A DNA stretch of 64,000 nucleotides from Candidatus Eiseniibacteriota bacterium (GTDB taxonomy: Bacteria; Joyebacterota; Joyebacteria; Joyebacterales; Joyebacteraceae), in assembly GCA_030622115.1 (NCBI GenBank), contig JAUXGN010000002.1, positions 1-64,000 of the forward strand. Direction: 5' to 3'. Of the stretch, positions 12,262 to 47,685 are shown piece after piece. The translations under genes were made by a program, and so were the position numbers. The first letter of the stretch is position 1. The number at the start of each line of letters is the position of its first letter. The notes below the pieces were generated by a model. That model was not told the origin of the DNA. It did no database searches and saw nothing but the letters and a program-made list of their open reading frames with translations.

Positions 12262-12305
12262 GATTCAGGGTTCATGAGGGCCCTGTTTCACAATGGAGGA
12301 TGTCG

Positions 12306-19790: not shown

Positions 19791-21707
19791 ATGAAAGGGA
19801 AGAGAATGCGAAACCCCGTGGTGATTCTGCTGCTTCTAGTGTGCTTCGCTCTACCGGCGGGGGCATCGAGCCTGCATCTCATGGAAAACGGGGATATCGA
19901 ACAGCCCCTCACAACCGGCTGGGAGCAGAGTATCGCGGGCTCCTACCTCTATATCCAGCGCAGCACGGCGTTCGACGCCGATCCGGACTACGAGGTCAAG
20001 GTGTCAAGCAACAACGGCCACGGCAGCGCGAAGCTCTGGCAGTCGATCATCATTCCAAACACCGATGTGCAGTTCTCCGCCAGGCTTTCCTCAGCAGCGG
20101 TCGACGGGGGAGGTGCGTGGTGTGCCGCGGGTCTCATTCTGACCTATCTTGATGTCACCGGTGCGCCGCTGGGCAAAACGGCGCTGGCCGCGACGAGCGC
20201 GATCTGTCCATGGACCGAGAGCTCCACCTTCCACATCATCGATACGAATGGCGGGTGGGCGGACTATGGATTCACCCTGGCCGATGAGCTTCTGAATCTC
20301 CCCGGGATCGACGGTGAGGATGTCCACGAGATCGAGCTGTCATTGCTCGTATCCGCCGCCAACTGCTGAGGCGGCGTTGCTCAGGCGGAGGTCTCCGCCG
20401 ACGACATCAAGGTGGTCTTCACGAGTGCGGCGCCACACGTTGTCTACTTCGCGCAGTCGATCTCAGATCCCGGCGGGAACGGCAACGGTTATCTGGATGC
20501 CGGCGAGACCGTCGATCTCGAGATAACCGTGAGGAACTACGGCGAGCCGGCAAGCGGTGTTACCGCCGTTCTCAGTTCGATCGATTCGTATATCACTATC
20601 CTTCAGGCGAGCGCATCCCACGGGGACATGGCGACGGGAGCGACAGCCGTGAACTCCGCTGAACCGTTCGTGGTTGTGGCTTCAGCCGACACACCGCTCG
20701 GTCATCTTGCACAGTTCACCATTACGGCCACTTATGCAGATGGCGATGCTACAAGCAACTTCGCTATCCCAGTCGGCAAGTACCACTACGTCGTCTGGGA
20801 TCCGACCGCGGACACGTCGAGCGGCCCCGACATACATGCCACGCTCGCCGGGCTGGGGTTCAGTGGAGTCTACATGGAGCAGTTGCCCGTCGATGACCTG
20901 GATCGCTATCAGACTGTATGGGTCTCCCTCGGCATCTACTCGAGCAACTACGTCATCGGTCTGAACTCCCAGGAAGCACTTGCGATCGTCGACTACCTCA
21001 ATGGCGGCGGGTGCGTGTACCTGGAGGGCGGCGACTGCTGGAACTACGACCCGACCATCGGCGGGCACAATTTCAACAGTACGTTCGGACTGACGTCCCC
21101 GCAGGATGGCAGCAACGACTGCGGCCCGGCACAGGGCAAGGCGGGCACGTTCACGGAGGGGATGTACTTCGCCTACAATGGGGAGAACAACTGGATCGAT
21201 CATCTTTCCCCCGCGAACGGGAGCGCGACGCTCGTTCTTGAGAACGGCAGCCCGGTCTACGGTCTCGCGGTGGCATACGACCAGGGGACGTACAAGACTG
21301 TCGGAGCGTCTTTCGAATTCACCGGACTCAGGAACGGTACTGTGCCGTCTACCAGGGCACACTTTGCGCTTACGATCATGGACTTCTTCCTGCCGATCCC
21401 ATCCGGTGTGGATGACGACGTCGTGGTGAACAAGGCCGCCCGTCTCGCCGCGCGGCCCAATCCCTTCAACCCAAACACCACTCTTCAGTTCATGAATCCT
21501 GGTGACGGCAGGGTGCACCTGGGTATCTACGACGTCTCTGGTCGGCTGGTGCGGGTTCTCGTGGATGACGAGATGTCTGCCGGGGAGGGCGCCTGCATCT
21601 GGAACGGCATGGATGAATCGGGCAGGTCGGTTGCCAGTGGCGTGTACTTCGCACGTTTGAAGGGAGCGGACTTCTCGAGCAGCAGCAAACTCGTCCTGCT
21701 GAAATAG
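19791..21707 (+). CDS. Secreted FlgD-tailed protein with an in-frame UGA at codon 193
   Basis: The frame is open from 19791 to 21707 except for TGA at 20367-20369. Residues 16-34 are a signal peptide; then an anchor-type beta domain (to about 205), a CARDB-like domain (NGNGYLDAGETVDLEITVRN, about 230-330), a domain with VVWDPTADTSSG, and a FlgD-like tail (RPNPFNPNTTLQF to KLVLLK). Both sides of the UGA read as one domain: VSAANC-stop-GGVAQAEVSADDI. A GTG at 20412 could restart translation but has no signal peptide. Options are a nonsense mutation or sequence error (likeliest), readthrough, or selenocysteine, because a SECIS-like hairpin follows. The ATG at 19806 is an alternative start. Confidence 0.75.
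20384..20399 (+). promoter_or_regulatory. SECIS-like hairpin downstream of in-frame UGA
   Basis: GGCGGA pairs with TCCGCC around the loop GGTC. The bases GGTCT begin 20 bases after the UGA. E. coli fdhF has GGUCU in the SECIS apical loop at 18 bases, and known bacterial elements allow about 16-37. No bulged U is visible in the stem, which E. coli SelB needs. The structure may be chance in GC-rich coding sequence. Confidence 0.25.
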
Positions 21708-21732
21708 CGCCGTGCAAGGAACTGGATCTGAT

Positions 21733-23613
21733 CTACGGGGCTTCCGTGACGTCTCTCGGGGGCCCCGTTTTTCCTGCCGCTCTCACTCGCTCCTTCTTCC
21801 GTTCCGTCTGCAGGAACTCCCGGTACGTCTCGCATCGGCCGATGAGTTCGTCGTGCGTTCCACTGTCAACGAGACGCCCGTCTTCGAGGACGACAATGGA
21901 GTCGGCTCGCCTGATCGTGGTGAGTCGATGTGAAACAACGAAGCAAAGACAGTCCTTGTACTCGCTGTCGAGACGCGTCCAGAAACGGTCCTCGTTGCGC
22001 GCGTCGAGAGCGGCCGTGCAGTCATCCAGAAGCAGGATACCAGGCCGTCCGGCAAGCGCTCTTGCGATCGCAATGCGCTGCTTCTGACCACCGGACACAA
22101 GCTCACCCTTCTGTCCCACGACAGTATCGATACCGGCTGGAAGCGCCGCGATGTCGGAGTCCATCTGGGCCATCGACAGGCAGTGCTCCGCCCACTCTCG
22201 CGGTGAGGGCGCGTCCAGTGGTCCGTCCTCGGGAGGTGTTCGCCCGAAGGAGACGTTCTCCTCAATTGATTGTGAGAACAGGAGCGCCTCCTGAGGCACA
22301 TAGCCGATCTCAAGGCGGTAGGTGTTCCAGTCCCAGTCACCGAGCGGGCGCCCGTTGATGAGAACGCGTCCTTCATCCGGACTGATGACACCTGCGAGGA
22401 GCTTGAGCATCGTCGACTTGCCGCTCGCGACCGACCCCACGACAGCGATCCGTTGCCCCTTCGATACGCGAAGACTGACGTTGCTGAGGATCCGACGGGA
22501 GCGATCATACGAGAAGGAGACCCCCTCGAGCGCCACGTCGCGAACGTCCTCGAGCCGTGCGCCGGAAGATCGCCGCTCCGTCACGGGGAACGCGCGGATC
22601 TCTTCCACACGATCGATCGAGATGAATGCCTGCTGACCCGTCATGAAGAGGAACGGGATGTCCATCATCGGACCAGTGAGTATGTCCAGGTAGACGTAGA
22701 ACGCGAAGAGCGTCCCGATCGTGAGCTCGCCACTCATGACGAGGAAGCCGCCGTAGACGATGACCACCATCTGGCCCAGCCTGGTGGCGAACGTGTCGAG
22801 TGAGAAGAGAACGACCTGCAGCTTCACAAGCCCCATGAGGATCTCAACGCGCTCCCTCAGTATCGTCGAAAGCCGTTTGCTCTGGGCATCCTCGGCGCTG
22901 AACGCCTTGACGATTCTGATTCCCGAGAATACCGACTCAAGGATGTTGTTGGTTGTGGAAACGTACTTCTGTGATTCCTCCATGTAGTGGCTCATCTTGT
23001 GTCTGAGCGTGTAGAAGACCCACATCATGATGGGGAGGGGGATCACGGAGAGTCCCGTGAGCTTTGGGTTCATGATGAGCATGGCCCCAAGGCAGAAGAT
23101 GAGTTTGGAGCTCGACTCGACCGCCCGGAAGATACCCGAGCAGGCGAACCACGAGACCTTCGGCCACTCCGCGATATCGTCAGTCAGGCGTGTGACCACG
23201 TCTCCGGTCCGGAATGCATTCCCGAAGTGGTAGTCTTTCGTCATGAGCTGGCCGAAAACGTCGTCGCGTATGTCACGCTCAAGCCGAGCGTTGATCATAG
23301 CGCGGGTAGCGGGGTAGAGGCGCGAGATGAAGTGCCCCACCAGAATGGCGCCCAGGATGAGCATGATCCCGTGGATGCTCGCGTCGGCCGTGCCGGACTT
23401 GAAGATGCCGGAGACGCGATCTATGACAGTTCTGAAGACGAGCGGATACGCCACCGTCACGGCGGTCGACAGGAGTGTGAATGCGGCCATGAAGACGAGA
23501 AGGTACTTGTGTGGGCGCCAGTAGCCCCACATCCACAGGATGTGCTCCTTCAGGCTGAGCTTCGGAGCGCTGTCTGTGCCTTCCGTCCGGCGTTTTGCTG
23601 TGGTCTCGCTCAT
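21733..23613 (-). CDS. ABC exporter half-transporter, subunit 2 (degenerate catalytic residue)
   Basis: 626 residues: six-helix membrane domain (about 35-330), then nucleotide-binding domain with Walker A GSVASGKST (393-401), Q-loop VPQEALLF, signature VSGGQKQR (507-514) and Walker B ILLLD (526-530). The catalytic glutamate after Walker B is replaced by Asp (LLLDDCTAALD). Its ATG overlaps the stop of the upstream half-transporter (ATGA), so the two are co-translated and form a heterodimer. Such asymmetric exporters (BmrCD, TM287/288 type) have one active and one degenerate ATP site. Substrate unknown; multidrug or lipid-like export is typical. Confidence 0.92.
   Translation of the reverse strand: MSETTAKRRTEGTDSAPKLSLKEHILWMWGYWRPHKYLLVFMAAFTLLSTAVTVAYPLVFRTVIDRVSGIFKSGTADASIHGIMLILGAILVGHFISRLYPATRAMINARLERDIRDDVFGQLMTKDYHFGNAFRTGDVVTRLTDDIAEWPKVSWFACSGIFRAVESSSKLIFCLGAMLIMNPKLTGLSVIPLPIMMWVFYTLRHKMSHYMEESQKYVSTTNNILESVFSGIRIVKAFSAEDAQSKRLSTILRERVEILMGLVKLQVVLFSLDTFATRLGQMVVIVYGGFLVMSGELTIGTLFAFYVYLDILTGPMMDIPFLFMTGQQAFISIDRVEEIRAFPVTERRSSGARLEDVRDVALEGVSFSYDRSRRILSNVSLRVSKGQRIAVVGSVASGKSTMLKLLAGVISPDEGRVLINGRPLGDWDWNTYRLEIGYVPQEALLFSQSIEENVSFGRTPPEDGPLDAPSPREWAEHCLSMAQMDSDIAALPAGIDTVVGQKGELVSGGQKQRIAIARALAGRPGILLLDDCTAALDARNEDRFWTRLDSEYKDCLCFVVSHRLTTIRRADSIVVLEDGRLVDSGTHDELIGRCETYREFLQTERKKERVRAAGKTGPPRDVTEAP
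21735..21772 (+). terminator. Terminator after the FlgD-tailed gene, inside the end of the ABC exporter gene
   Basis: ACGGGGC at 21735-21741 pairs with GCCCCGT at 21762-21768, followed by a T-run. The hairpin lies within the last codons of the convergent minus-strand exporter gene. Confidence 0.7.
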
Positions 23614-25403
23614 TCCGTCGCCTGCGCTGCGAATTGGAGATCGAAGAGGTCCCTGTACATTCCATCTTGCGCGTACAGCTCGTCGTGATCGCCTTCTTCT
23701 ATCAGTTGTCCCTCGTGCAGAACCAGTATCCGGTCCGCACCTGTGACCGTTGAGAGCCGATGGGCCACGATCAACGACGTGCGTCCCGCGAGCAGACTGT
23801 CAAGCGCATCCTGAAGCCTACTCTCGGTCACGGGGTCGACCGACGATGTCGCTTCGTCGAGTATGAGGATGTCCGGGTTGTTGACGATCGCGCGCGCGAA
23901 GCAGAGAAGCTGCCGCTCGCCCATCGAGAGGTTCGCTCCTCCTTCGGAGAGTTCCGTGTTGTAGCCGTCCGGGAGGCGCTCGATCATCCTGCCTGCCTGC
24001 ACAGTCTCGAGTGCTTTGGCGATCGCGTCGTCCGGGATCTCTTCCCGGAGGACCTTCAGGTTGTCCGCGAGATCTCCGGGGAAAAGATGTATGTCCTGGA
24101 GGACGAGGCCGATCCTGCGTCTCCACTCCTTCTGCCTGAAGTGGCGGATGTCGACACCGTCGAGCGTTATCCTGCCTTGGGTAGGCTCGTAGAATCTCAG
24201 AAGGAGGTTCGTGACTGTGGTCTTGCCTCCTCCCGAGAGCCCCACGAGCGCCACTCTCTCTCCGTGCCGAAGATCAAAGCTCACATTGTCGAGTGCCTTG
24301 GTACCTCCGTCGTACTGGAACGTGACGTTCTCGAAGGCCAGCGCTTCCCAGTCTGTCGGGATATCCGGGACGGCGTCCTTCCAGTCAGGCGTGCGGGAGG
24401 GCGTGTCGAGTATTGCGAAGACCCGGTCCGCCGACGCGAATGCCCGCTGGATGAAATCAAGCTGCTCCGAGAACATCACGAGCGGCCAGAAGAGACGCCT
24501 TGTGTACTCGATGAAGAGCACGAGTGTTCCGACCGTCATCGTCACACCGAACGTATGTCTCGCTCCGATATAGATGATGACCATGACGGCAGCGATCTCG
24601 GCCGAAGAGAAGGCGCCCCAGAAGGCGTATTCTCTGAAGTAGATCCGGATCTCCTTCGAGTACTTGTCTCTGTTCAGGCGCATGAGGTTCATCTGCGCCG
24701 TCTCCGTGTACCCGAAGATCTGTAGTATTGGGATGCTCTGCACGTACTCGGCGAGGAAGGCTGAGATTCGTGCATAGAGCTTGCGGACGGTGCGGAATGC
24801 CCGTCGGATGTATTTCAGGAAGAAGTAGGTCGCGAAGAGCACTGGGCTCATCATGATGATGATCGACAGTGTTACGCGGGCGTCCGCGGCGAGCATGACC
24901 GTGATCGTTCCACCCAGGAGCACCACATTTCTCACAAGCGACAGAGCCACATCGGAGAAGAGGTGCCGCAAACGTTCGATGTCGCTCTCGACCCTTGCCA
25001 TGAGCACGCCCGGAGAGTTCTTGTCAAAATAGGCGAGCGAGAGTCCCATGAGGTGCGAGAATGTCTGTTCTCGGAGTTCCGTGATTATGGAGAGACCGAT
25101 CCTCGAGACGATCACGACCTGGACATATGCGGCGCCCATCCCGAGAGCGTAGAGCGCGACATACAACAGCCCCCGGCGCAGCAGTCCGCCGCCGTCTCCG
25201 GCCGGGATGTCGGTGTCGAGAACATGCCGGACGATGAGAGGTCCCGCGAGCTCTGCCGCAGCCGTAATGAGCATCAAGAGAGCCGCTCCCAGGAGCCTGC
25301 GCCTGTGCGGCCGGAAGAGCGGCAGGATTCTCCGGATCATCGCCCGGAGCGGAAGCCGCTTTGCCTCCTGCTCATCTCCGTGTATGTCTTCGTCCCAATG
25401 CAT
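23610..25403 (-). CDS. ABC exporter half-transporter, subunit 1
   Basis: 597 residues: membrane domain (about 25-320) and nucleotide-binding domain with Walker A GLSGGGKTT (388-396), signature LSMGERQ (492-498, degenerate relative to LSGGQ) and Walker B LILDEATSS with catalytic Glu517. Its intact Walker site pairs with the intact VSGGQ of the partner encoded immediately downstream; the other site (partner's Asp, this LSMGE) is degenerate. The first gene of the two-gene operon; the ribosome binding site before the ATG is weak. Confidence 0.92.
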   Translation of the reverse strand: MHWDEDIHGDEQEAKRLPLRAMIRRILPLFRPHRRRLLGAALLMLITAAAELAGPLIVRHVLDTDIPAGDGGGLLRRGLLYVALYALGMGAAYVQVVIVSRIGLSIITELREQTFSHLMGLSLAYFDKNSPGVLMARVESDIERLRHLFSDVALSLVRNVVLLGGTITVMLAADARVTLSIIIMMSPVLFATYFFLKYIRRAFRTVRKLYARISAFLAEYVQSIPILQIFGYTETAQMNLMRLNRDKYSKEIRIYFREYAFWGAFSSAEIAAVMVIIYIGARHTFGVTMTVGTLVLFIEYTRRLFWPLVMFSEQLDFIQRAFASADRVFAILDTPSRTPDWKDAVPDIPTDWEALAFENVTFQYDGGTKALDNVSFDLRHGERVALVGLSGGGKTTVTNLLLRFYEPTQGRITLDGVDIRHFRQKEWRRRIGLVLQDIHLFPGDLADNLKVLREEIPDDAIAKALETVQAGRMIERLPDGYNTELSEGGANLSMGERQLLCFARAIVNNPDILILDEATSSVDPVTESRLQDALDSLLAGRTSLIVAHRLSTVTGADRILVLHEGQLIEEGDHDELYAQDGMYRDLFDLQFAAQATE

Positions 25404-25745
25404 AGCAGGTTCGCCAGTCCTGGGAAGGCGGGTTTCATTCCGGCCGTCGTGAAGTCCGCTGCGCCGGCCGGGAGCCGTGCGGTCCCGAACCTCAAGTTGA
25501 GTGTACCGACACGGACAGATTGCGCGATTCTACAGGCGACAGGATGAGCGTGCAAAGCAATAGCCGCACGTCGTACTACGAAGTGCCTGCGCTCACCATT
25601 ATGACGGGATGCCGGTACGCCTTTCTGGCCCGGAAGATGCAAGAATGGACGATTGTTCAGGTATCACCTGGCACCGCCCTGATGTTGTACTTGGCTTGCA
25701 ATCCCACAGGATACTGGCTCTACCATCACCATAGGAGAGATCGTC
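25404..25745. other. Divergent intergenic region, no gene seen
   Basis: The 342 bases lie between the minus-strand exporter operon and the plus-strand porin. A GGAGA lies ahead of the porin start. I find no promoter of the strength seen elsewhere in the window. A short open frame beginning at 25543 overlaps the porin gene in another frame and is not supported. Confidence 0.4.
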
Positions 25746-26960
25746 ATGATATTCGGACGTATGCAGCGCCAGCTTATGACAGCCATGGTTGTGCTTCTTG
25801 CCGCTCCTGCTACGGCACTCGCCGCAGACGTGGCGGTCACAACCGATGGCGGAATCGAGGTGTCGCGGTATGACGGTAGCGCCTGGTTCAAAGTCGGCGG
25901 AAGAGTGATGGTCGACGGAGGGTTCTACGCTGAGGACGAAGTTACGCTCGGCGATGGTACCGAGCTGCGGCGAGCAAGAATCGACGTCGAGGGTGGTGTC
26001 TCTCACAACTGGGAGTTCGAGTTCAGCGCCGACTTCGCAGACGGAGACGCCGACGTCAAGGATGCAGCCCTTTCCTATCTGGGACTCGATTCGACGCAGA
26101 TCACCATCGGGCAGCAGAAAATCCCGTTCAGCCTTGAGGAGCTCACAAGCTCCAAGCACACGACGTTCCTCGAGCCGGCGCTCCTCAACGAGCTCGTACC
26201 AAGTCGGAAGATCGGGATCACCGCCATCTACCGCAGCAGCGCCTGGACCACGGCGGCAGGTGTATACGGCGAGGAGTTCGATGATGACGCGGACGACGAG
26301 GGCAACGAAGGTTGGTGCGTCGCTGCGCGAGCGACCATCGCGCCGGTTCACGATGACCGCCACGCCGTGCACTTCGGAGCTAATGTCGCGTTGGAGATTC
26401 CCGACACCGAACGGAAGATCTCGTACGACACGCGCCCCGAAGCGCACGTTGCCGGCGTGAAATATGTCGACACAGGCAAGATCAGAGGCGTGGAGGATGT
26501 CCGAGCGTGGGGTCTCGACGCGGCCGTTGTCATGGGATCCTTTTCGCTGCAGGGTGAGTATGTGGTGGCGACGGTGGCTCAGGAACCGGAGGATGAGCGT
26601 GCCTCATCCAAGGAGTACGAGTTCACCGGATGGTACGCGTACGCCAGCTGGTTCGTGACGGGCGAGTCCCGCGACTACAAGGTCAACAAGGGCGCTTTCG
26701 GCAGAGTGAAACCGTATGGTACCAGCGGCGCCCTCGAACTCTCGGTCCGCTACAGTGTGCTCGATCTCACCGACGGTGAGATCGAAGGTGGCGAGGAAGC
26801 GAACATCACGCTTGGCGCCAGCTGGTATGCGAACCGCAACGTTCGTCTCACTGCCAACTACGTCATCGTCGACAACGACGAATGCGCGGACGCCGACGGC
26901 GATGTCGAGGGAGATGACGATCCGCACATCTTGAGCGTCAGATGCCAGGTATGTTTCTGA
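25746..26960 (+). CDS. Outer-membrane porin, phosphate-selective porin O/P-like
   Basis: 404 residues. Signal peptide about 1-27 (cleavage near ALAADV). The body is made of alternating amphipathic strands: FKVGGRVMVDGGFY, LRRARIDVEGGVSHNWEFEFSAD, VKDAALSYLGL, ITIGQQKIPFSLEELTSSK. These match the Porin_O_P (OprO/OprP) family, including the RRAR start strand and the QQKIPFSLEELTS segment. It ends in phenylalanine (QVCF), the usual last residue recognised by BamA. It lies 52 bases before a PhnD-like gene, which suggests that the porin admits the ligand (phosphate, phosphite or phosphonate) sensed by its neighbours. Confidence 0.85.
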   Translation: MIFGRMQRQLMTAMVVLLAAPATALAADVAVTTDGGIEVSRYDGSAWFKVGGRVMVDGGFYAEDEVTLGDGTELRRARIDVEGGVSHNWEFEFSADFADGDADVKDAALSYLGLDSTQITIGQQKIPFSLEELTSSKHTTFLEPALLNELVPSRKIGITAIYRSSAWTTAAGVYGEEFDDDADDEGNEGWCVAARATIAPVHDDRHAVHFGANVALEIPDTERKISYDTRPEAHVAGVKYVDTGKIRGVEDVRAWGLDAAVVMGSFSLQGEYVVATVAQEPEDERASSKEYEFTGWYAYASWFVTGESRDYKVNKGAFGRVKPYGTSGALELSVRYSVLDLTDGEIEGGEEANITLGASWYANRNVRLTANYVIVDNDECADADGDVEGDDDPHILSVRCQVCF

Positions 26961-27012
26961 AGCCGCGCCGGCCCCGGCCGGTCCAGCGGCACTGCTGCAC
27001 GGAGGTGTCTCA

Positions 27013-27960
27013 ATGAGAAGCGGCCGCTGGTCCATCGCTCAGATCTTGATCGTGATGGCCATCTCGGTGGCGTTTGTTCCATCGCAGCTGTCCGCCGCCC
27101 GGGACGGCGATGAACGGAGCCACGTGCTTGTCATCGGCAAGGTCTCAGACAACCCGAAGAAGCACTACGGCTATCTGAAACCGATGGTTGACTACGCGGT
27201 CTCGATGATGGGAGATCTGGGCATTACACGCGGCGAAGTGCTCATGGCGCCCTCAAACGAGGTGATGATTGAATACCTGAAGGCAGGCAGAGTCGACTGG
27301 GTCACAGAGGCCCCCTTCTCGGCTCTGATCTTCAGAGACGAGGCTGAAGCCGTGCTGCTGCTGCGGAAATGGAAAAGGGGTGTTCCGAAATACCGAACCG
27401 TATTCTTCGTGAGGAAAGACAGCGGCATTGCGACGCTTGCGGACCTCCGGGGGCGAACAATGGCCTTCGAGGATGACGGTTCGAGTTCGGCCTTTTTCGT
27501 ACCGGCGTCCGTGCTTCTCGGAACCGGCTTGAAACTCGTTCCCCTCGCGTCACCCAGAGACGTGCCGCCGGACGACGCCGTCGGGTATGTCTACTCTCAT
27601 GAGGAGATCAACTCGTCCGTGTGGGTGTACCGCGGCATCGTCGATGCGGCCGCCTTCAACGACCTCGATTGGAACAAGGAAGACCACATGCCGGCGTTTT
27701 GTCGAGACGACATGCAGATCATCTACCAGACGGAGCCGATGACACGGGCCATCGAGGTGGTTCGCGGCGACCTCGATCCGGCCGTCAGGGAGAGGCTGCG
27801 AAGTGTGCTATTGCTTGCGCACGAGGATCCGTCCGCTGTCGATGCGCTGTGGGCGTATCAGAAGACGGCGAGATTCGACGAGATCGATGCGGGTGTGATA
27901 GCAGATCTGCGGACAATGGAGAGCATGCTGAGTGAGGTTTGCGAGGAGTTCGGCGAATGA
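27013..27960 (+). CDS. PhnD-like periplasmic phosphate/phosphonate-type binding protein
   Basis: 315 residues with signal peptide (about 1-28). The two-lobed substrate-binding fold of the PhnD/PtxB family is recognisable: VIGKVSDNPKKHYGYLKPMVDY, NEVMIEYLKAGRVDWVTEAPFSA, VFFVRKDSGIATLADLRG, MAFEDDGSSSAFFVP. No permease or ATPase gene is adjacent. The stop codon overlaps the start of a hybrid histidine kinase (ATGA), so the protein probably delivers ligand to that kinase. A short GC hairpin (26968-26981) lies between the porin and this gene. Confidence 0.88.
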   Translation: MRSGRWSIAQILIVMAISVAFVPSQLSAARDGDERSHVLVIGKVSDNPKKHYGYLKPMVDYAVSMMGDLGITRGEVLMAPSNEVMIEYLKAGRVDWVTEAPFSALIFRDEAEAVLLLRKWKRGVPKYRTVFFVRKDSGIATLADLRGRTMAFEDDGSSSAFFVPASVLLGTGLKLVPLASPRDVPPDDAVGYVYSHEEINSSVWVYRGIVDAAAFNDLDWNKEDHMPAFCRDDMQIIYQTEPMTRAIEVVRGDLDPAVRERLRSVLLLAHEDPSAVDALWAYQKTARFDEIDAGVIADLRTMESMLSEVCEEFGE

Positions 27961-30146
27961 TCCTACGTCTGCGAACTCAGTACACTCTCGCGATCGCATC
28001 CGTGGTTGTGCTCACAGCACTCGCGCTGGCTGCAGTCATCGTGTACAGCTCGAGCCGCGCTGCTATCTTACGCACTGAGACAATCAGCCGCGCCGCTTCT
28101 GAACGGCTCATCAGCGAGATGCGCAATCGCGCGGAGCTGGCATCACACCTGGTCGCCGAGAACATCGTCAATGCCTACTACATGTACGACATGGAGAGAA
28201 TGGACAACGTTCTCTCTGCTGCCATGTCGCAGCCGAACCTCGTCACCGCAGAGGTGTTCGACCTGGAAGGCAGGATAGTCCACGATGGCACGGGCAGTGC
28301 TGCCTACGGCGACAGGGGCGTGGGATCCGAACTCCTGGCGGCCCTCACTATCTCACGTTCCGGAGACGCCATCGTCAGGATGTCAGAAGACGCTGTGTAC
28401 GCTACCACACCACTCCTGATGGGCGATGATGTCATCGGTGGGACCACCGTCGCGCTGTCACTTGCTGAGCTGAAGCAGCAGATAATACTGCTCGAAGCAG
28501 AGTTCGACACGCTCAACAGACAGGCTGTGCGACACGGCGTTTTCGCAATCGTCCTGGCAGCGGCACTCATCGTCGGCGTTGCGGCTCTGATCGCATCGAG
28601 GGTAGCCGCACGCCTTTCGAGGCCCATCACGAACTTGTCCCGTGCTGCCCTTGAGATCGGCAAAGGACTCCCGACGATGCACGTAGAGGCGCAGGGCGCT
28701 CGCGAGATCGTCGACCTGGTCGACTCGTTCAACTCGATGGCGCGGGATCTTAGTAACACGACGATCTCGCTGGACCGTCTTGAAGATGTCGTCGCTGAGC
28801 GCACGTCTCAGATCCGGGCGGCCAACCAGCGTCTTCGCTCTGAGATTGGACATCGCAAGCGTGCCGAGGAAGAGCTTCAGAGACACCGAGACAGGCTAGA
28901 GCTGCTCGTGGTCGAACGCACGCAGGAGTTGACCGAATCCAATTGCCTGCTCAAACGCGAGATCAAGGAGCGTATCGAGGCAGAGCGGAGCCGCCAGCAG
29001 CTCGAAGCCCAGCTTCTCCGTGCGAAAAAGATGGAATCCTTGGGTATGCTCGCGGGCGGAGTCGCCCACGACCTCAACAACATCCTGACAGGCATCGTGA
29101 GCTACCCTGAACTCCTGCTGCACCAGATCCCGCCTGACAGCAAACTGGCCGAACCGCTCAGGACGATCATGTCCTCCGGCGAGAGGGCGGCTGCGGTCGT
29201 TCAGGACCTGCTCACAATGGCCCGCCGGGGCGTTGCGTCGATGGAGCCGCGCGACCTCAATGCGATCGTTGACGAGTATCTGATGACCCCAGAATTCAAG
29301 TCGCTGGCCGCCGCCCGACCCGATGTGGATGTTCAGGTACGGCGCAGCGACCAGAGCCAATGGATCATGGGGTCCCGCGTCCACCTTATCAAGAGCATCG
29401 CGAATCTGGTGATGAACGCCTTCGAGGCCATGCCGGACAGAGGGACTGTGCGCATCGAGACGCGCCGGGCGGAGGCCGGCGGCTCCGCCGATCGGTCGGA
29501 CGTGTCCCCACACGCGGTCCTCGAGATCTCCGACACAGGCATCGGCATCAGTCATGACGATCTCGAGAGGATATTCGAGCCGTTCTACACGAAGAAGAAG
29601 CTCGGCCGCAGCGGTTCAGGACTGGGGATGGCCGTCGTCTGGGGAACGGTTCAGGACCATGACGGTCGGATCGATGTCGACAGCAGACTAAGTGAGGGAA
29701 CGACGTTCACGGTGTTCTTCCCGGTCACGGATTTGCCTCCGGAGCAGCTGCAGGACAGCGAGACCATCAGCGACTTCGAAGGTCGGGGGCAGCCGATCCT
29801 CGTCGTCGACGATGTTGCCGAACAGCGCGACGTCGCCACGAAGATGCTGACCATGATGGGGTACGAACCGACCGCCGTTTCCGGCGGCGAGGAGGCCATC
29901 GACTATGTGCGTGACCACGAGTGTGACCTCCTCGTTCTCGACATGATCATGGATCCGGGCATCGACGGCCTGGAAACGTACCGCAGAATCCTGGATGTCC
30001 GACCGGACATACGAGTCGTGATAGCGAGCGGATTTGCGGAATCCGAACGAGTCGCCCAGGCGCGGGCACTGGGCGCATCCTTCTACATTCAGAAGCCCTA
30101 CTCAGCGACCGATCTCGGCAGAGCCGTGAGCGCGGCTCTGCAGTAG
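27957..30146 (+). CDS. Hybrid sensor histidine kinase with receiver domain
   Basis: 729 residues. Membrane helices at about 10-30 and 195-215 flank a periplasmic or extracellular sensor domain (about 31-194). Then HAMP (216-270), coiled coil (270-360), HisKA with phospho-acceptor His371 in GGVAHDLNNIL, HATPase_c with N-box around N487 (IANLVMNAFEAM), ISDTGIGIS and RSGSGLGMAV, and a C-terminal receiver with acidic pair D618/D619, phospho-Asp D662 (LLVLDMIMDP) and K713. Start at 27957 overlaps the PhnD-like stop. No DNA-binding response regulator is nearby, so the receiver must pass the signal to a partner elsewhere or act as a phosphate sink. Confidence 0.95.
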   Translation: MILRLRTQYTLAIASVVVLTALALAAVIVYSSSRAAILRTETISRAASERLISEMRNRAELASHLVAENIVNAYYMYDMERMDNVLSAAMSQPNLVTAEVFDLEGRIVHDGTGSAAYGDRGVGSELLAALTISRSGDAIVRMSEDAVYATTPLLMGDDVIGGTTVALSLAELKQQIILLEAEFDTLNRQAVRHGVFAIVLAAALIVGVAALIASRVAARLSRPITNLSRAALEIGKGLPTMHVEAQGAREIVDLVDSFNSMARDLSNTTISLDRLEDVVAERTSQIRAANQRLRSEIGHRKRAEEELQRHRDRLELLVVERTQELTESNCLLKREIKERIEAERSRQQLEAQLLRAKKMESLGMLAGGVAHDLNNILTGIVSYPELLLHQIPPDSKLAEPLRTIMSSGERAAAVVQDLLTMARRGVASMEPRDLNAIVDEYLMTPEFKSLAAARPDVDVQVRRSDQSQWIMGSRVHLIKSIANLVMNAFEAMPDRGTVRIETRRAEAGGSADRSDVSPHAVLEISDTGIGISHDDLERIFEPFYTKKKLGRSGSGLGMAVVWGTVQDHDGRIDVDSRLSEGTTFTVFFPVTDLPPEQLQDSETISDFEGRGQPILVVDDVAEQRDVATKMLTMMGYEPTAVSGGEEAIDYVRDHECDLLVLDMIMDPGIDGLETYRRILDVRPDIRVVIASGFAESERVAQARALGASFYIQKPYSATDLGRAVSAALQ

Positions 30147-30292
30147 CACCGGACGGGCGGGCGCTCGATTACTTCCCCGGGCACTCGGCGGCGGTCGGAG
30201 GACAATGCCTTGACACACGCCCCGCCAATCGCGATACTGCAGAGTGAACGGTCGGCAACGGAACTGATGCCGGCAGCGAAGTTAGGTACCAT

Positions 30293-30320
30293 CTGACACG
30301 CCTCGACCACCTGATATCAT
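30293..30320 (+). promoter_or_regulatory. Promoter candidate for the trehalose operon
   Basis: CTGACA at 30293-30298, 16-base spacer, TATCAT at 30315-30320 preceded by TGA (extended -10). A second candidate, TTGACA at 30210-30215 with 17 bases to GATACT at 30233-30238, lies upstream. Either gives a leader ahead of the GTG at 30389. Confidence 0.5.
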
Positions 30321-30388
30321 GCGCCGTGAGGCGTGCTCTGTTTCACCTGCGGGCAACCGCCGGCATCTGGCGCCAACGAGAGGTTTCC

Positions 30389-31069
30389 GTGACGCGTCCA
30401 ACGCCAGCCGCTTTCGGAGAGGAACTGCAGTTCCGGGTGAAGGACTGCGCTCTGGCCGCGCTGGCGACAGGCGAGCGGGCGCAGAACCTCAAAGAGCTGC
30501 GTGACAAGCTGACGACGGTCGACGCCGCCAGCATATACTACCACTTCTGGGGTACGCTCCTGCGCCCCGTCTTCGACGATCCCAGGTACAACAACGACTT
30601 TGCCATCTGGGTCTTTGACGCACTGCACGACCAGCCGCTGGCCGAGCGGCTCGGCGTGCTCGATCCGGTCGACTTCTACGACATGGAGGAGCTCCGCAGA
30701 GAGCTGCTCGACATCATCGACGAAGAACTCGACCTGGTCGAAGTTCTCCCCTGGACCCCGCGCGAGTCGCAGTTCCACTTCATGCGTTCGCAGATCGTTG
30801 TGTTCGACTCGCAACTGACGGTGATAGATCCTGCGGGTCTTGCAGACGCTGTGTCCGCCATGTCGGTCGGGAGCATATTCTACCACTTTGTGGACGCGCG
30901 GAGGCGGACACCGGAGGGTGTCGACGACTTTCGTGCATGGCTTCAGGGACTGCCGGGCGACTACAGTGCGGCCTGCGACCGGCTCGCCCAGGTGGACCCG
31001 TTCTTCAGAAGCCTGGTCGAGATCCGTGAGGAACTGTTCGAAGCGCTGTTGGAAACACTGACCGGGTAG
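30389..31069 (+). CDS. DUF5752-like protein of the trehalose cluster
   Basis: 226 residues made of two similar halves: KDCALAALATGERAQNLKELRDKL...DAASIYYHFWGTLL and RSQIVVFDSQL...MSVGSIFYHFVDARRR. Each half carries a [AV][AG]SI[YF]YHF motif. I believe this is the DUF5752 family, which is found next to glycosyltransferases and trehalose genes; its function is not established. I prefer GTG at 30389 because GAGAGG lies 5 bases before it; a GTG at 30326 is at or near the predicted transcript start. It is the first gene of the operon, 62 bases before the TreT-like gene. Confidence 0.75.
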   Translation: MTRPTPAAFGEELQFRVKDCALAALATGERAQNLKELRDKLTTVDAASIYYHFWGTLLRPVFDDPRYNNDFAIWVFDALHDQPLAERLGVLDPVDFYDMEELRRELLDIIDEELDLVEVLPWTPRESQFHFMRSQIVVFDSQLTVIDPAGLADAVSAMSVGSIFYHFVDARRRTPEGVDDFRAWLQGLPGDYSAACDRLAQVDPFFRSLVEIREELFEALLETLTG

Positions 31070-31131
31070 CTCACGGGAGAACGTCCGGGCGGTCGCGCGG
31101 AGCACTACGAACGGAAGGGGCAGCATTCTCA

Positions 31132-32373
31132 GTGTCTTTATCACTCGCACGATACGTTGACATCACCGGCGAAGATGTCGTCAATCAACTCCGACAGCTC
31201 GCCGAGCCGCTAGCCGGCAAGCGCGTCGTACACGTCAACTCCACACGCGTCGGCGGAGGAGTCGCGGAGATCCTCGCGAAGCTCGTACCGCTCATGCGGG
31301 AGCTCGGCATCGAGACGACGTGGGAGGTTATCACCGGCGACCCCGACTTCTTCAGCGTGACCAAGTCCTTTCACAACGCACTGCAGGGCAATCGGGTCCC
31401 TATCTCCGCAAGCCAGTACGAGCACTATGAGGCGGTGAACCGCGAGAACGCCAAGACGCTCTCTGAGAAGCTGGCGTCCGCAGATCTCGTTTTCGTCCAC
31501 GACCCACAGCCGGCGCCGCTGCTGAGCTTCATCCCGAAGCGTCGCGGCAGCTGGATCTGGCGCTGTCACATCGACGCGAGCCGGCCGCACAGACCGGTCT
31601 GGAAGCACTTACGCAGATTCGTCGAGGGATACGACGCGAGCATCTTCTCGCTACCCGACTTCGCTCAGAGACTACCGCACCCTCAGTACATCATTCCGCC
31701 CAGCATCGATCCGTTGAGCGAGAAGAACGTCGATCTGCCGGCGTCGGAGATCGATGAGGTCTGCAGGCGGCATGGCATCGATCGGACACGACGGCTCGCT
31801 GTGCAGGTCTCGCGCTTCGATTGGTTCAAGGACCCGGTCGGAGTCATCGAGGCCTTCCAACTCGCGCGGAGATCCTGCCCCGATCTGCAGCTGGTCCTGG
31901 CGGGGGGGACGGCCACGGACGACCCGGAGGGCGCCGCCGTGCTCGACGCGGTGAACACTGCTGCGAACGGCGACCCGGACATCCATATTCTGCTTCTGCC
32001 CCCCGACGCCCACAGGGAGATCAACGCGATCCAGCGCGCCGCCGATGTGGTCCTCCAGAAGTCCATCAAGGAAGGTTTCGGCCTCACCGTGACCGAGGCG
32101 CTCTGGAAGGCCCGGCCCGTCATCGGCGGCAACGTCGGAGGGATTCGACTCCAGGTCATCGACCACCATACGGGCTTCCTCGTATCGACGCCTGAGGGCG
32201 CGGCTCTGAGGATGTGCTATCTTCTCCAGCGGCCGGACCGCCTCCGAACCATGGGTGAGAAAGCCAGGGAGTTTGTCCGCGAGAACTTCCTTCTGACCCG
32301 TCACCTCCGCGAGTACCTGACCGTGATGGTCGCGCTCACAACGGGGATGAAGGACCGGATCGAGCTCGCATGA
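31132..32373 (+). CDS. treT: TreT-like trehalose synthase, GT4 glycosyltransferase
   Basis: 413 residues, GT-B fold. The N-terminal domain has HVNSTRVGGGVAEILAKLVP and WEVITGDPDFFSVTKSFHNA, characteristic of trehalose-glycosyltransferring synthases (NDP-glucose + glucose to trehalose). The C-terminal GT4 domain has VSRFDWFKDPVG and KEGFGLTVTEALWKARPVIG with the conserved EX7E glutamates. Start is GTG at 31132 with AAGGGG upstream, spacing rather long. Its stop overlaps otsB (ATGATG). In this cluster it may use glucose or glucose-6-phosphate; family membership is clear but exact acceptor is inferred. Confidence 0.88.
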   Translation: MSLSLARYVDITGEDVVNQLRQLAEPLAGKRVVHVNSTRVGGGVAEILAKLVPLMRELGIETTWEVITGDPDFFSVTKSFHNALQGNRVPISASQYEHYEAVNRENAKTLSEKLASADLVFVHDPQPAPLLSFIPKRRGSWIWRCHIDASRPHRPVWKHLRRFVEGYDASIFSLPDFAQRLPHPQYIIPPSIDPLSEKNVDLPASEIDEVCRRHGIDRTRRLAVQVSRFDWFKDPVGVIEAFQLARRSCPDLQLVLAGGTATDDPEGAAVLDAVNTAANGDPDIHILLLPPDAHREINAIQRAADVVLQKSIKEGFGLTVTEALWKARPVIGGNVGGIRLQVIDHHTGFLVSTPEGAALRMCYLLQRPDRLRTMGEKAREFVRENFLLTRHLREYLTVMVALTTGMKDRIELA

Positions 32374-33167
32374 TGGATCGGAATCCACGGCCGCCTCACG
32401 TGTCGGACGTTCCTGGCTTCTGGGACCGGGTGGCGACGGCTCCGTCGAGGATGCTCGTTCTCGATTACGATGGAACGTTGGCTCCGTTCGTCGTCGATCG
32501 GATGGCGGCATTCCCGCTGGACGGGATCACGGAGACGCTCTGCGCCATCAGGGAGAGCGGGACAACACGGTTAGCGATCGTGACAGGGCGGCCGATCGAC
32601 GAGCTTCTGGAACTCCTCGGCGATCTCGAGATCCCAGTCGTCGGGAGTCAGGGGGCGGAATTCCGCTACCCGAACGGGCGCTGGTTCACAATGCTGCCGT
32701 CGGCTCGACAGCGGGCGAGACTCCTCCAGGCCGAGCAGGAAGCCCTGGCCTTCGCGCCCGAAGAACGCGTGGAGAAGAAGCCGGCGAGCGTTGCGTTGCA
32801 CACCCGCGGCACAGCTGCGTCGAAGGCGCGAGCGAGCGAAAAGGCGCTCCGCAAACTCTGGACGCGGGATGCAGAGGAGAGCGGCCTGGAATGCAGATCG
32901 TTCCTCGGCGGGGTGGAGTTTCGTCTCAAAGGGACCACTAAGGGGACAGCGGTCAACGTCCTCACGAAAGAATGCGCACCAGACGACCTCATCGTCTACA
33001 TCGGCGATGACGACACCGACGAGGATGCCTTCGCGGCGCTCAAGGGCCGAGGACTCTCCATTCGGGTCGGGGACGCGGCGACAGCGACGGCGGCCGACGC
33101 AAGACTGTGCGACACATCGGATGTTCGGTGGTTCCTCGTCAAATGGCTCGACGTGACGAACGCCTGA
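32370..33167 (+). CDS. otsB: Trehalose-6-phosphate phosphatase
   Basis: 265-residue HAD hydrolase: trehalose 6-phosphate to trehalose + phosphate. Motif I LVLDYDGTLAPF (nucleophile Asp), motif II AIVTGRP, conserved GSQGAEFR, KPASVALHTRG, and motif IV YIGDDDTDEDAF. Start overlaps the TreT-like stop and the next gene begins 4 bases after its stop, so the three are translationally linked. Confidence 0.94.
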   Translation: MMDRNPRPPHVSDVPGFWDRVATAPSRMLVLDYDGTLAPFVVDRMAAFPLDGITETLCAIRESGTTRLAIVTGRPIDELLELLGDLEIPVVGSQGAEFRYPNGRWFTMLPSARQRARLLQAEQEALAFAPEERVEKKPASVALHTRGTAASKARASEKALRKLWTRDAEESGLECRSFLGGVEFRLKGTTKGTAVNVLTKECAPDDLIVYIGDDDTDEDAFAALKGRGLSIRVGDAATATAADARLCDTSDVRWFLVKWLDVTNA

Positions 33168-33170
33168 GGC

Positions 33171-34664
33171 GTGCACGAACAAGGCAGGACGGTCCAGCAG
33201 ATGCTACACCAGAGAGGTAACCTCATCGTCGTTTCCAACCGCCTCCCGGTGGTGCTCTCGCACGAAACGGACGGCTGGCACGTCGAACCTGGATCCGGCG
33301 GACTCGTCACCGCACTGGCGCCCGTCCTCCGCGACCGGGGCGGCACTTGGATTGGCTGGCCCGGGACCTCCGCTGACGGCGACATCGAGAGTGCGCTGAC
33401 ATCGCTCGCCGGCAAGATCGGATACTCGCTCGTACCGGTGCGGCTCACACCGAACGAGACCGCCAAGTACTACGAGGGGTTCTCCAACGAGATCATCTGG
33501 CCGCTCTTTCACGATATGCAGTCCCTCTGTAACTTCGACCCGTCGTACTGGAATGTCTATAGGGACGTGAACCGCAAGTTCGCAGAGGTGGTCATGCGGA
33601 CGGTCGGCAACGATGACTTCGTCTGGCTGCACGACTACCACCTGATGCTCACAGCGAAGTACATGCGGGAGATGGGATTCAAAGGAAAGATCGGTTTCTT
33701 CCTTCATATTCCCTTCCCACCGCTCGACATGTTCCTCCGGCTGCCGTGGAGGGCAGAGATCCTGACGGCGCTCACGGAATGTGATCTCGTCGGCTTCCAG
33801 ACGATGCGCGACCGGCGCAACTTTGTTCACTGTCTTCGGGCAATCCTCGGGGGAGCCAACTACTGCGGCAGAGGACAAGTGTGCGGCCTCACGACCGAGC
33901 ACCGCGAGTTCCGGATTGGCGCGTTCCCGATCAGCATTGACTTCGGCTATTTCTCGGAGAAGGCGCACAGCGACGAGGTTGCCGAGTGCGCGTGGCAGAT
34001 CCACGCGAACCTGCCCGACCGCCAGATCGTCCTCGGCGTCGACCGGCTGGATTACAGCAAGGGGATTCTTCACCGCCTCGATGCGTTCAAGAGACTGCTC
34101 GCGCGACGCCCAGAATTACAGAACCACGTCTCGCTCGTTCAGATCATCGTGCCGAGCCGGCGCGGCATCCCGGAATACGGGGCGCTCAAGACGCGGATCG
34201 AGCGGGCGGTCGGAGAGATCAACGGGCGGTTCACACAGCTGACCGGTTGGATTCCCGTCCACTACATCTACCGTTCGCTCGAGCAGACGGAGCTCATCGC
34301 GTACTATCGTACGGCGGAGATCGCACTCATCACTCCGCTGAAGGACGGAATGAACCTGGTGGCGAAGGAGTACTGCGCCGCCAATTCTGAAGAGAGCGGT
34401 GTGCTCATTCTGAGCGAGTTTGCGGGCGCAGCGGCGGAACTGGGGAAGGCAGCCCTACTTGTGAACCCTCACGACGTCGTGGGCGTGGCGGAAGCGCTTC
34501 ACACGGCCCTCTCAATGCCGCTCGAAGAGCGCAGGCGTAGGATGGGCAGCATGCGGCAGATCGTGAGGCGTCACGACGTCTTCTGGTGGGTGGACACATT
34601 CCTCAGGGCTGCGTTTGCAAAGGACCTCAGCAACTTCCCGGTCATTGCCGAGCTCCCCACGTAG
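33171..34664 (+). CDS. otsA: Trehalose-6-phosphate synthase
   Basis: 497 residues, GT20: UDP- or other NDP-glucose + glucose 6-phosphate to trehalose 6-phosphate. IVVSNRLPVVL, GSGGLVTAL, WPLFHD, WLHDYHLMLT, GFFLHIPFPP, GVDRLDYSKGI (phosphate and nucleotide contacts), LIALITPLKDGMNLVAKEY-type segment and EFAGAAAELG. The start is uncertain between GTG 33171 and ATG 33201; the conserved region begins after the latter. Last gene of the DUF5752-treT-otsB-otsA operon, giving an OtsAB route beside the TreT route. Confidence 0.95.
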   Translation: MHEQGRTVQQMLHQRGNLIVVSNRLPVVLSHETDGWHVEPGSGGLVTALAPVLRDRGGTWIGWPGTSADGDIESALTSLAGKIGYSLVPVRLTPNETAKYYEGFSNEIIWPLFHDMQSLCNFDPSYWNVYRDVNRKFAEVVMRTVGNDDFVWLHDYHLMLTAKYMREMGFKGKIGFFLHIPFPPLDMFLRLPWRAEILTALTECDLVGFQTMRDRRNFVHCLRAILGGANYCGRGQVCGLTTEHREFRIGAFPISIDFGYFSEKAHSDEVAECAWQIHANLPDRQIVLGVDRLDYSKGILHRLDAFKRLLARRPELQNHVSLVQIIVPSRRGIPEYGALKTRIERAVGEINGRFTQLTGWIPVHYIYRSLEQTELIAYYRTAEIALITPLKDGMNLVAKEYCAANSEESGVLILSEFAGAAAELGKAALLVNPHDVVGVAEALHTALSMPLEERRRRMGSMRQIVRRHDVFWWVDTFLRAAFAKDLSNFPVIAELPT

Positions 34665-34719
34665 CATCTCATGAGCGCTTCTACACAAGAACTGGTACAT
34701 TGCTATGTTGGGCCTGTCC

Positions 34720-34748
34720 TTGACCGACCCCGCCGATTGTGGTATTCT
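34720..34748 (+). promoter_or_regulatory. Extended -10 promoter of the LVIVD-repeat gene
   Basis: TTGACC at 34720-34725, 17-base spacer ending GATTGTGG, TATTCT at 34743-34748. The eight bases before the -10 are identical to those at the promoter of the gene at 19791. Confidence 0.75.
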
Positions 34749-34797
34749 TGATAGGTATCGCTGATTGACACATCCGTGGTGGAGGGGGAGGTATATC

Positions 34798-37356
34798 GTG
34801 GAGAGGTGGAGGCTCATGGCTCGATTGCTTGTCACGCTGCTCCTGGTCGCGTTCGCGATCTCTGCGAGCGCGGACGTTCACATCTTCTCCGAGGATTTCT
34901 CCGACGCTGAGTTCAAGGATACTGCCATCACAACTGCGATCTGGGATACGACTTCCGGGAGGATAGAACTCCCGCTCTTCGAGATGTTGATGGTGGGAAA
35001 CGCGGCTCTTACCGACCCGGCTCTTCGCGTTGAGGTCGCCGGTGACATCGCATATGTTGCCGCCGACGCGCGTGGACTTCTTGTTATCGACATCAGCGAC
35101 CCTGCAGATCCGCTGGTCATTGGGAGCTACGAGACGCCGGGTGACGCGAGAGACGTCACCGTGGCCGGGGATCTTGCGTTCGTGGCCGATCGGCTTGAGG
35201 GGCTTCAAATTATAGATGTGAGTGATCCAGGGACTCCCGAACTCGTCGGCAGTTGTGCGATGCCAACGGTAGCGCTGGGTGTCGTGGTGTCAGGCGACTA
35301 TGCATACATCGCTGCCGGTGGGAGTGGCCTCCAAGTTGTTGATATCAGCGATCCGACGGCGCCTTTTGTGGCGGGTGGGCAGGAGCTTGCCAGTGAGGCA
35401 GTGGACGTCACTGTCAGTGGCCGCTCCGTCTTCGTGGCCGCAAGAATCGGCGGGGTCTTCGCTGTCGACGTCAGCGATCCCACGAACCCCGCGAATATGT
35501 GGAAGTACGTGACACCGGGCGACGCGTACGCCGTGGCCGTGGCCGGCGATATCGCCTATGTTGCCGGCTTCAGTGTTGCCTGGCCTCCTCCCAGTGAATC
35601 GTTCTTCCATGTCCTGGATATCAGCGCTCCCGACGAGGCTGTGGTCATAGGCACGATGTCGGAATATGGGAAACCGAGCGGTCTCTCCATCCACGGAGAC
35701 CGGGTGTATGTCGCCGACTGGTCGTACGGACTCTCGGTCATAGACGTGAGTAATCCTGCCGCACCGGTTGTCGACGGTACGCTCGATTCTGCGATGGGGC
35801 CGCGCGGCGTGTCCGTTGTTGGCGGCCATGCATACTTGGCGGATACGGCAGCCGGTCTCAACGTGGCGAGCGTGGGATCGCCCGTCCCTCCGGAGACGGT
35901 GGCTCTCGTTGATACCCCGGGCGATGCGTTTGGGATCGTGGTCGAAGGGAACTACGCCTTTGTTGGTGATCAGCTTGCCGGTCTTCAGATCATAGATATG
36001 ACCGACCCGCTTGCGCCGGTGCTTACTGGAGGCGTTGATACGCCGGGCAGATCGTACGGTGTGGATGTGGCCGGCAACTACTGCTATGTCGCCGACGGCG
36101 GATTCGGCCTGCGCGTAGTCGACATTACCGATATCGATGCGCCGGTTGAGACCGGAAGCTACAACTCTCCCGGATTCGCATACGATGCCGAGGCGGCCGG
36201 GAATATCGTGTTTGTGGCCGACGGAAACGCCGGCGTCGGGACCTACGATGTTACGGATCCCGAGAACCCACGGCCTGTTGGCCTCTGCGATACGCCGGGA
36301 ACGGCCTACAGCATCGCCGTGGATGGAGACATTATCTACCTGGCGGACCGCTACGGCGGCCTCCAGATCCTCGATGCGAGTGATCCCGAGACTCTGGAGA
36401 TAGTCGGGAACTCCGACGCCCCTCAGGATGCACGAGGAATCGAGGTTCGCGGAGACGTCGCGTTTGTGGCTGACGCCGGCTCGGGGCTCAGGATCATCGA
36501 TGTCGGCAACCCCGTCGATCCAGTTGAGATAGCGTCACTTGATCTTGCTGCAGGCGCGTACGGGATTGCCGTTCGCGGCGACATGGCCTATGTGGCTCTG
36601 GGAGTGTGGGGGGTCGAGGCAGTGGACATCTCGGATCCTTCGAATCCGTCTTCCATCGGGCGAAATGCCGTGGACGATTGGGCTTACGGTGCGACCGTGG
36701 CAGGTGACTACGCGTACGTGTCGGACAGCGAGTCGGGAATCAAGGTGATGGAGGTTCTCCAGCACCGTCTTGGAGTCGGACAGAACGTCGTGAAGTCGCT
36801 ACCCATCGGGACGACCACCGGCGAGATCGTGAGTGTAGAAATCGAGACGGTTCAGATGGACTCCATCCGCTGGGAGTTGAGCGCGGATGGCGGGTCTACC
36901 TGGGAGGAGGTCCATCCAGGCGCCAGGCCTCTCGATTTCGGCAATCCGGGCGACACGATTCTATGGAGAGCTGAGCTGGTCTACGTGAAGTCCGGTGACT
37001 TCCCACTCTGCACCGAGCTTGTCATCACGTGGGTCGCGGATGAGACCGGCGTTGGTGACGACCTCGAGATGCCGGGCTCCTTCGCCCTCTACCAGAACAG
37101 TCCGAATCCCTTCGGGCCCACAACGAGGATCCGGTACGATGTGCCGGCCGGAGGGGGAGTGGTGACTCTCGATGTTTTCGACGTGCGTGGGAGGCTTGTC
37201 AGGAGACTCGAGCGCAAGCACGAGGCGCCGGGCCGCAGGGAGGTCGTCTGGGATGGGCGGAACTCGAGCGGGGACCGTGTTGCGGCGGGCGTCTATTTCT
37301 ACAGACTCGAAGGTCCCGGATTCGAACACGAGCGCAAGATGATCGTGCTCAGGTGA
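34798..37356 (+). CDS. Secreted LVIVD-repeat beta-propeller protein with FlgD-like tail
   Basis: 852 residues. Signal peptide at about residues 7-26 (ARLLVTLLLVAFAISASA). About 14 LVIVD-type repeats of roughly 42 residues follow, for example GDIAYVAADARGLLVIDIS, GDYAYIAAGGSGLQVVDIS and GNYCYVADGGFGLRVVDIT, each continuing DP..P. They build one or two beta-propellers. After a linker domain (GTTTGEIVSVEIETVQMDS) the last 85 residues (NSPNPFGPTTRIRYDV to MIVLR) are a FlgD-like sorting domain. Start is GTG at 34798 (GGGGGAGG upstream) or ATG at 34816. Likely a surface binding or adhesion protein. Confidence 0.9.
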   Translation: MERWRLMARLLVTLLLVAFAISASADVHIFSEDFSDAEFKDTAITTAIWDTTSGRIELPLFEMLMVGNAALTDPALRVEVAGDIAYVAADARGLLVIDISDPADPLVIGSYETPGDARDVTVAGDLAFVADRLEGLQIIDVSDPGTPELVGSCAMPTVALGVVVSGDYAYIAAGGSGLQVVDISDPTAPFVAGGQELASEAVDVTVSGRSVFVAARIGGVFAVDVSDPTNPANMWKYVTPGDAYAVAVAGDIAYVAGFSVAWPPPSESFFHVLDISAPDEAVVIGTMSEYGKPSGLSIHGDRVYVADWSYGLSVIDVSNPAAPVVDGTLDSAMGPRGVSVVGGHAYLADTAAGLNVASVGSPVPPETVALVDTPGDAFGIVVEGNYAFVGDQLAGLQIIDMTDPLAPVLTGGVDTPGRSYGVDVAGNYCYVADGGFGLRVVDITDIDAPVETGSYNSPGFAYDAEAAGNIVFVADGNAGVGTYDVTDPENPRPVGLCDTPGTAYSIAVDGDIIYLADRYGGLQILDASDPETLEIVGNSDAPQDARGIEVRGDVAFVADAGSGLRIIDVGNPVDPVEIASLDLAAGAYGIAVRGDMAYVALGVWGVEAVDISDPSNPSSIGRNAVDDWAYGATVAGDYAYVSDSESGIKVMEVLQHRLGVGQNVVKSLPIGTTTGEIVSVEIETVQMDSIRWELSADGGSTWEEVHPGARPLDFGNPGDTILWRAELVYVKSGDFPLCTELVITWVADETGVGDDLEMPGSFALYQNSPNPFGPTTRIRYDVPAGGGVVTLDVFDVRGRLVRRLERKHEAPGRREVVWDGRNSSGDRVAAGVYFYRLEGPGFEHERKMIVLR

Positions 37357-47628: not shown

Positions 47629-47656
47629 ATGTCTCTCCCTAGCCTGAGTTGCGCGG

Positions 47657-47685
47657 AGTATATGCACGAGCAAGAAAGCTGTCAA
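47657..47685 (-). promoter_or_regulatory. Near-consensus promoter of the FnIII gene
   Basis: Minus strand TTGACA (plus 47680-47685), 17 bases, TATACT (plus 47657-47662). The predicted transcript begins near 47650, which fixes the TTG at 47628 as start and excludes starts upstream. Confidence 0.75.

Follow-up and report, generated by a model that had tools for sequence, protein, structure and literature searches.

A porin, a PhnD-type binding protein and a hybrid histidine kinase encoded side by side in a Candidatus Eiseniibacteriota genome as a probable sensing cassette

The window considered here, a stretch of 64,000 nucleotides from a Candidatus Eiseniibacteriota bacterium, carries a gene for a PhnD-type binding protein between the genes for an outer-membrane porin and a hybrid histidine kinase. 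Such a neighbourhood raises the question of whether the three products take up a solute or sense it. Very probably, the porin, the binding protein and the kinase jointly detect a small molecule and do not import it. The preferred reading, with a probability of about 85%, is that the three genes make up a single sensing cassette of the XAC2383-XAC2382 type, movable as a block, in which solute entry, capture, docking on a Cache domain and a phosphorelay would follow one another. The source genome comprises 2.63 Mb, and its completeness is given as 100%.

All three genes lie on the plus strand, and their order was confirmed as Porin_O_P porin (25746-26960), PhnD-type binding protein (27013-27960) and hybrid histidine kinase (27957-30146). 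The first-pass annotation had placed an OprO/OprP-like porin upstream of the binding protein, and the 404-residue product indeed matches PF07396 (Porin_O_P, 8.5e-67) over profile positions 1-370 of 370, i.e., over the full barrel, its nearest solved relatives being OprP (2.4e-34) and OprO. The overlap of stop and start codons described for the next two genes was found as an ATGA at 27957-27960, where the kinase start ATG occupies 27957-27959 and the binding-protein stop TGA occupies 27958-27960; the start given for the kinase by the list of open reading frames was TTG 27939. No importer-type permease or ATPase gene is present in the cluster, as had been claimed, and only exporter-type ABC genes occur upstream. 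The cluster contains no separate response-regulator gene, so it does not belong with the receptor-kinase-regulator clusters of the AioXSR/ArrXSR kind. Promoter and terminator scans near the cluster start revealed nothing firm, and no Rfam elements were found at positions 20000-36000.

On the minus strand, divergent from the porin, two overlapping genes (21733-25403) encode fused exporter-type ABC half-transporters, which are not Phn or Pst parts and probably form a heterodimer. The cassette is followed by four consecutive trehalose genes (30326-34664), encoding a DUF5752 protein, a TreT-like synthase, a trehalose phosphatase and a trehalose-phosphate synthase. Large proteins with a terminal FlgD-like Ig domain are encoded at 34765-37356 and 44770-47700, one with LVIVD repeats and the other with purple-acid-phosphatase N-terminal and fn3 domains.

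The binding protein (315 aa) was assigned by Pfam to PF12974 (Phosphonate-bd, 3.5e-37), and its score against the PhnD equivalog, 74.6 bits, lies below the cutoff of 261. A signal peptide is present and a lipobox cysteine is absent. The nearest PDB relative is XAC2383 (5ub3; E 1.3e-61, 41% identity). The AlphaFold2 model (pLDDT 92.4) fits XAC2383 with TM 0.96 and an rmsd of 1.3 Å, closer than ArrX, PtxB or PhnD, and the phylogenetic tree groups the window protein with XAC2383 against PtxB. XAC2383 reportedly contacts the Cache domain of XAC2382 and prefers phosphate-containing compounds, and relatives with other output modules are said to occur in several phyla. XAC2383 and XAC2382 of Xanthomonas citri are published as a pair of periplasmic receptor and diguanylate cyclase (Teixeira et al. 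2018, J Biol Chem 293:10767). The window resembles this pair in that an XAC2383-like PF12974 receptor adjoins a sensor with homologous Cache and HAMP domains and no transporter accompanies them; in Lysobacteraceae relatives, the receptor gene likewise overlaps the gene for a Cache-HAMP sensor. Unlike the Xanthomonas pair, the window has a hybrid-kinase output in place of GGDEF, an upstream porin and Glu198 instead of Lys. The binding protein and the sensor are thus a known kind of sensing pair, which departs here from the characterised case by having a hybrid kinase as output and a modified porin linked to it.

The kinase (729 aa) begins with TM1 at about residues 7-30 and continues with an extracytoplasmic part, TM2 at about 190-215 and a HAMP domain at 216-265 (28602-28751; PF00672, 1.6e-06). 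The extracytoplasmic stretch of roughly 160 residues noticed earlier was found at about residues 31-189 (28047-28523) and is predicted to be a single Cache domain. In an AlphaFold2 model of residues 1-268 (mean pLDDT 87), this part was matched by Foldseek to the sensor domains of WalK and CitA, which are of the single-Cache type. A sensor-only HMM covering residues 1-205, with HAMP excluded, detected the window sensor at 7e-20, being built from Lysobacteraceae sequences only. The catalytic part includes HisKA (363-424), with the phospho-acceptor His371 (codon 29067-29069) in the motif GGVAHDLNN (H-box at 367), HATPase_c (474-591) and a C-terminal Response_reg receiver (614-724; 29796-30128; PF00072, 8.8e-20) with Asp662 in LDMIMD at 661. 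The motifs are intact, with H, N, G1 and G2 boxes all present, as in a hybrid histidine kinase.

The pairing of binding protein and sensor was followed in a scan of 84,980 species genomes, which yielded 234 relatives of the binding protein, and the best 80 were read. Directly after the binding protein, on the same strand, a membrane sensor with a homologous N-terminus was found in 79 of the best 80 of the 234, a count that does not represent 80 independent events because most of these loci are from Lysobacteraceae; in the one remaining locus, the contig stops 286 bases past the binding protein. The four-nucleotide NTGA overlap recurs in 76 of 80 binding protein-sensor pairs, the window counted and the relatives taken from the best 80 of 234. 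The second sample was the order of one Chromatiales genome, where the binding protein occurs in 36 of 210 genomes; among the 30 loci read, two of which repeat loci of the 80, the sensor adjoins the binding protein on the same strand in every case (30/30). Co-occurrence of sensor and binding protein, the rarity of which would speak against a common function, is frequent in both samples, and these loci were found via the binding protein, so sensors lacking it would be missed. No related locus was found on viral contigs. The record of contig JAHREJ010000037.1 names Bacillus subtilis SK7B5 in its title, yet the locus on it (5416-6318) is Stenotrophomonas-like, which suggests that the assembly is contaminated or mislabelled.

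The modules that follow the sensor vary. According to Pfam, ten neighbours have a common HAMP-linked sensor and differing outputs, and the outputs seen behind this sensor include HK-receiver (Eisenbacteria), HK-receiver-receiver, PAS-GGDEF-EAL and GGDEF-EAL. The output of the window kinase is HisKA-HATPase-receiver and not a diguanylate cyclase; since relatives that share this sensor differ in their output, a diguanylate cyclase was not taken as defining the pair. One and the same receptor-Cache pair would drive a kinase, a phosphorelay or c-di-GMP signalling, and in a whole clade the porin goes with it. In one locus (L040, 6903-11867), a single chain of 1655 residues combines the sensor with HK-receiver-receiver-Hpt-PAS-GGDEF-EAL and links the kinase and c-di-GMP versions in one protein.

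The order porin-binding protein-sensor, the conservation of which the first-pass annotation had proposed to check, is found in the window and recurs in 8 of the best 80 of 234 loci and in 22 of the 30 loci of the second sample, two being shared. Members from Lysobacteraceae lack the porin, which is therefore not needed for the pair to work. In the binding-protein tree, all porin-bearing loci make up one clade (98/94), which is mainly gammaproteobacterial, and the two Candidatus Eisenbacteria copies are placed together (100/99) inside it. The second copy belongs to another genus of the same family and is 64% identical to the window in the porin, 63% in the binding protein and 49% in the kinase; in the stretch compared, conservation does not extend to either flank. 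Only two of 20 genomes of the phylum contain the cassette. The simplest scenario is that the linkage of the porin arose once and that Eisenbacteria received the block by transfer. Over 29 loci, the pairwise distances measured for each of the three proteins are correlated at 0.94-0.97, in part through shared descent. Two records, one assigned to Proteobacteria and the other to Desulfurivibrio, have nearly identical cassettes (L045 and L046), pointing to either a recent transfer or a binning error. No paper treating porin, binding protein and hybrid kinase together was found in a literature search.

It seems that the cassette operates as follows. A small anionic or zwitterionic solute would pass the outer membrane, probably via the porin, as suggested by the linkage of its gene, and would be captured in the periplasm by the soluble PhnD-type protein, for which the anion motif and the predicted fold were seen. 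The binding protein would then dock on the single Cache domain and alter kinase activity via TM2 and HAMP; we infer the docking because the pairing of the genes is obligate and the pair persists while the output module is swapped. The phosphoryl group would presumably be handed from His371 to the receiver of the same kinase, and further to an unlinked Hpt protein and response regulator. The binding protein would serve no ABC importer.

The nature of the ligand bears on another explanation of the cassette. Phosphate, phosphite and phosphonate had been put forward as candidates, and this is a weaker part of the proposal: it derives from the names of the families, while half of the porin's central phosphate site and the ligand His and cap Tyr of the phosphite binders are not conserved. 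The comparisons of pocket and pore were made by alignment and describe the proteins as known from sequences, not measured pockets. Using the pocket residues of PMC5700983, Ser157-Ser158-Ser159 (codons 27481-27489) aligned with S124-T125-S126 of Pseudomonas PtxB, i.e., the Ser/Thr-Ser anion loop (STS motif) is kept, as is pocket Tyr127. Where PtxB and ArrX have their ligand His, the window protein has Glu198 (codon 27604-27606), and this residue is Glu in 80/80 of the best 80 of 234 loci and Lys in XAC2383. The Tyr that caps the ligand in phosphite binders is absent from the alignment position. Glu198 and Glu248 are invariant acidic residues in the region of the pocket.

The porin is similar to Pseudomonas OprP and OprO in the Pfam family and in part of the phosphate site. 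The central phosphate site of OprP includes D94, Y62, S124, S125, K121, K126, R34 and R133, and Porin_O_P proteins are not always phosphate channels, since ExtI of Geobacter, so annotated, is tied to selenite and tellurite (PMC5877670). Equivalents of Arg34, Ser124, Ser125 and Lys126 are retained in the window porin (4/8), whereas Lys121 is changed to Glu, Asp94 to Lys, Tyr62 to Arg and Arg133 to Pro, a pattern other than the central phosphate site of the phosphate-selective OprP/OprO porins. The positions of OprP Lys121 and Arg222 are Glu in 12/12 cassette porins. Unlike OprP and OprO, the window porin is strongly acidic, with a pI of 4.3 and 34 Arg and Lys versus 70 Asp and Glu.

It is conceivable, if rather unlikely, that the cassette is a sensor of phosphate limitation composed of an OprP-like phosphate porin, a phosphate receptor and a Pho-response kinase. 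The names of the porin and receptor families, the deposition of XAC2383 as a phosphate-binding protein and the retained Ser157-159 loop are in line with this explanation. It is opposed by the pore substitutions at Lys121 and Arg133, by the replacement of the PtxB ligand His with an invariant Glu in the best 80 of 234 relatives, and by the genome itself, in which PstSCAB, PhoU and a PhoR-like kinase are already encoded at another place. Simple phosphate or phosphite as the ligand is not supported by the aligned residues, and the best guess is an anionic or zwitterionic solute. A bolder version of the sensing cassette is tentative and about as doubtful as phosphate limitation: the porin clade might represent a three-part device reaching from the outer membrane to the cytoplasm, with its own entry channel and a non-phosphate ligand, moved as a block between gammaproteobacteria and Eisenbacteria, its output being exchangeable between phosphorelay and c-di-GMP. 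If this were true, a zwitterionic phosphorus compound, for example, an aminoalkyl phosphonate or a phosphoamine, would suit the invariant Glu198 and Glu248 and the pore Glu at the position of OprP Lys121. A class V aminotransferase gene (12300-13439) was considered as PhnW, but its best model was BhcA and all PhnW models scored far below the cutoff, so it was not used as evidence of the ligand.

Detection by a receptor and kinase has other precedents. Arsenic oxyanions are sensed by AioX and ArrX, two proteins of the PhnD fold that act upstream of a kinase (PMC5908839). The window shares with AioX-AioS-AioR and ArrX-ArrS-ArrR a PhnD-fold receptor paired with a histidine kinase for sensing and not for transport, but its receptor is only about 20% identical, the ArrX ligand His is replaced, no response regulator is linked and a porin is. 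It is improbable that the Cache domain senses the ligand directly, the binding protein only buffering or carrying the solute or modulating the sensor by contact. The Cache domains of CitA and DcuS, which the kinase model matches, do bind ligands directly; however, the binding protein adjoins every sensor met (79 of the best 80 of 234, and 30/30), and identity between the two Eisenbacteria copies is much lower in the sensor (39%) than in the binding protein (63%). The receptor and the cyclase of the XAC2383-XAC2382 pair are also said to interact.

The sensing cassette is further favoured by the search for importer genes. As in the importer receptors PhnD and PtxB, the window protein has the fold, the Pfam family and the STS-type anion loop; unlike them, it has no permease or ATPase partner and does not conserve the ligand His and the cap Tyr. 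Within about 6 kb of the binding protein, no binding-protein-dependent (BPD) permease gene was found in any of the best 80 of 234 loci, and an ABC ATPase gene occurred nearby in two of these 80, on the opposite strand. The same search seeds are able to see ABC parts, because they found them in 4 of 23 PF12974 loci that are only distantly related and were covered with shorter flanks. The genome encodes one PF12974 protein and eight BPD permeases, namely PstA, PstC and three sugar-type pairs; none of the eight is PhnE-like, and since the Pst pair and the sugar-type pairs account for all of them, there is no PhnE-type permease for the binding protein. A cognate permease and ATPase were thus found neither in the cluster, nor in the genome, nor near the best 80 of 234 relatives, and the protein does not qualify as an importer receptor. 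It is very improbable that the binding protein serves as receptor for an ABC importer encoded elsewhere in the genome and that the kinase only regulates this importer: the family PF12974 is counted among the ABC receptors, and permease and ATPase genes do lie next to some distant relatives, but the Pst pair has its own PstS, the other three pairs are of sugar type, and no permease lies near the best 80 of 234 relatives. Neither importer genes near the best 80 of 234 relatives nor rare co-occurrence, the two observations that could overturn the proposal of a sensing unit instead of a transporter, materialised, and the proposal is supported. A PF12974 protein that would be annotated as a phosphonate-transporter receptor appears as sensor input in all loci examined, so automatic annotation of this subfamily misleads.

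One sugar-type ABC permease pair is located in the window (47860-50941) with a binding protein, and an ATPase gene was not seen beside them. The Pst operon (PstSCAB) lies on another contig, together with PhoU and the PhoR-like kinase. A few kb downstream of phoU/pst, at 3536-5954 of L158 (genome G000, contig C51), a second Porin_O_P gene is accompanied by a PAS-GGDEF gene.
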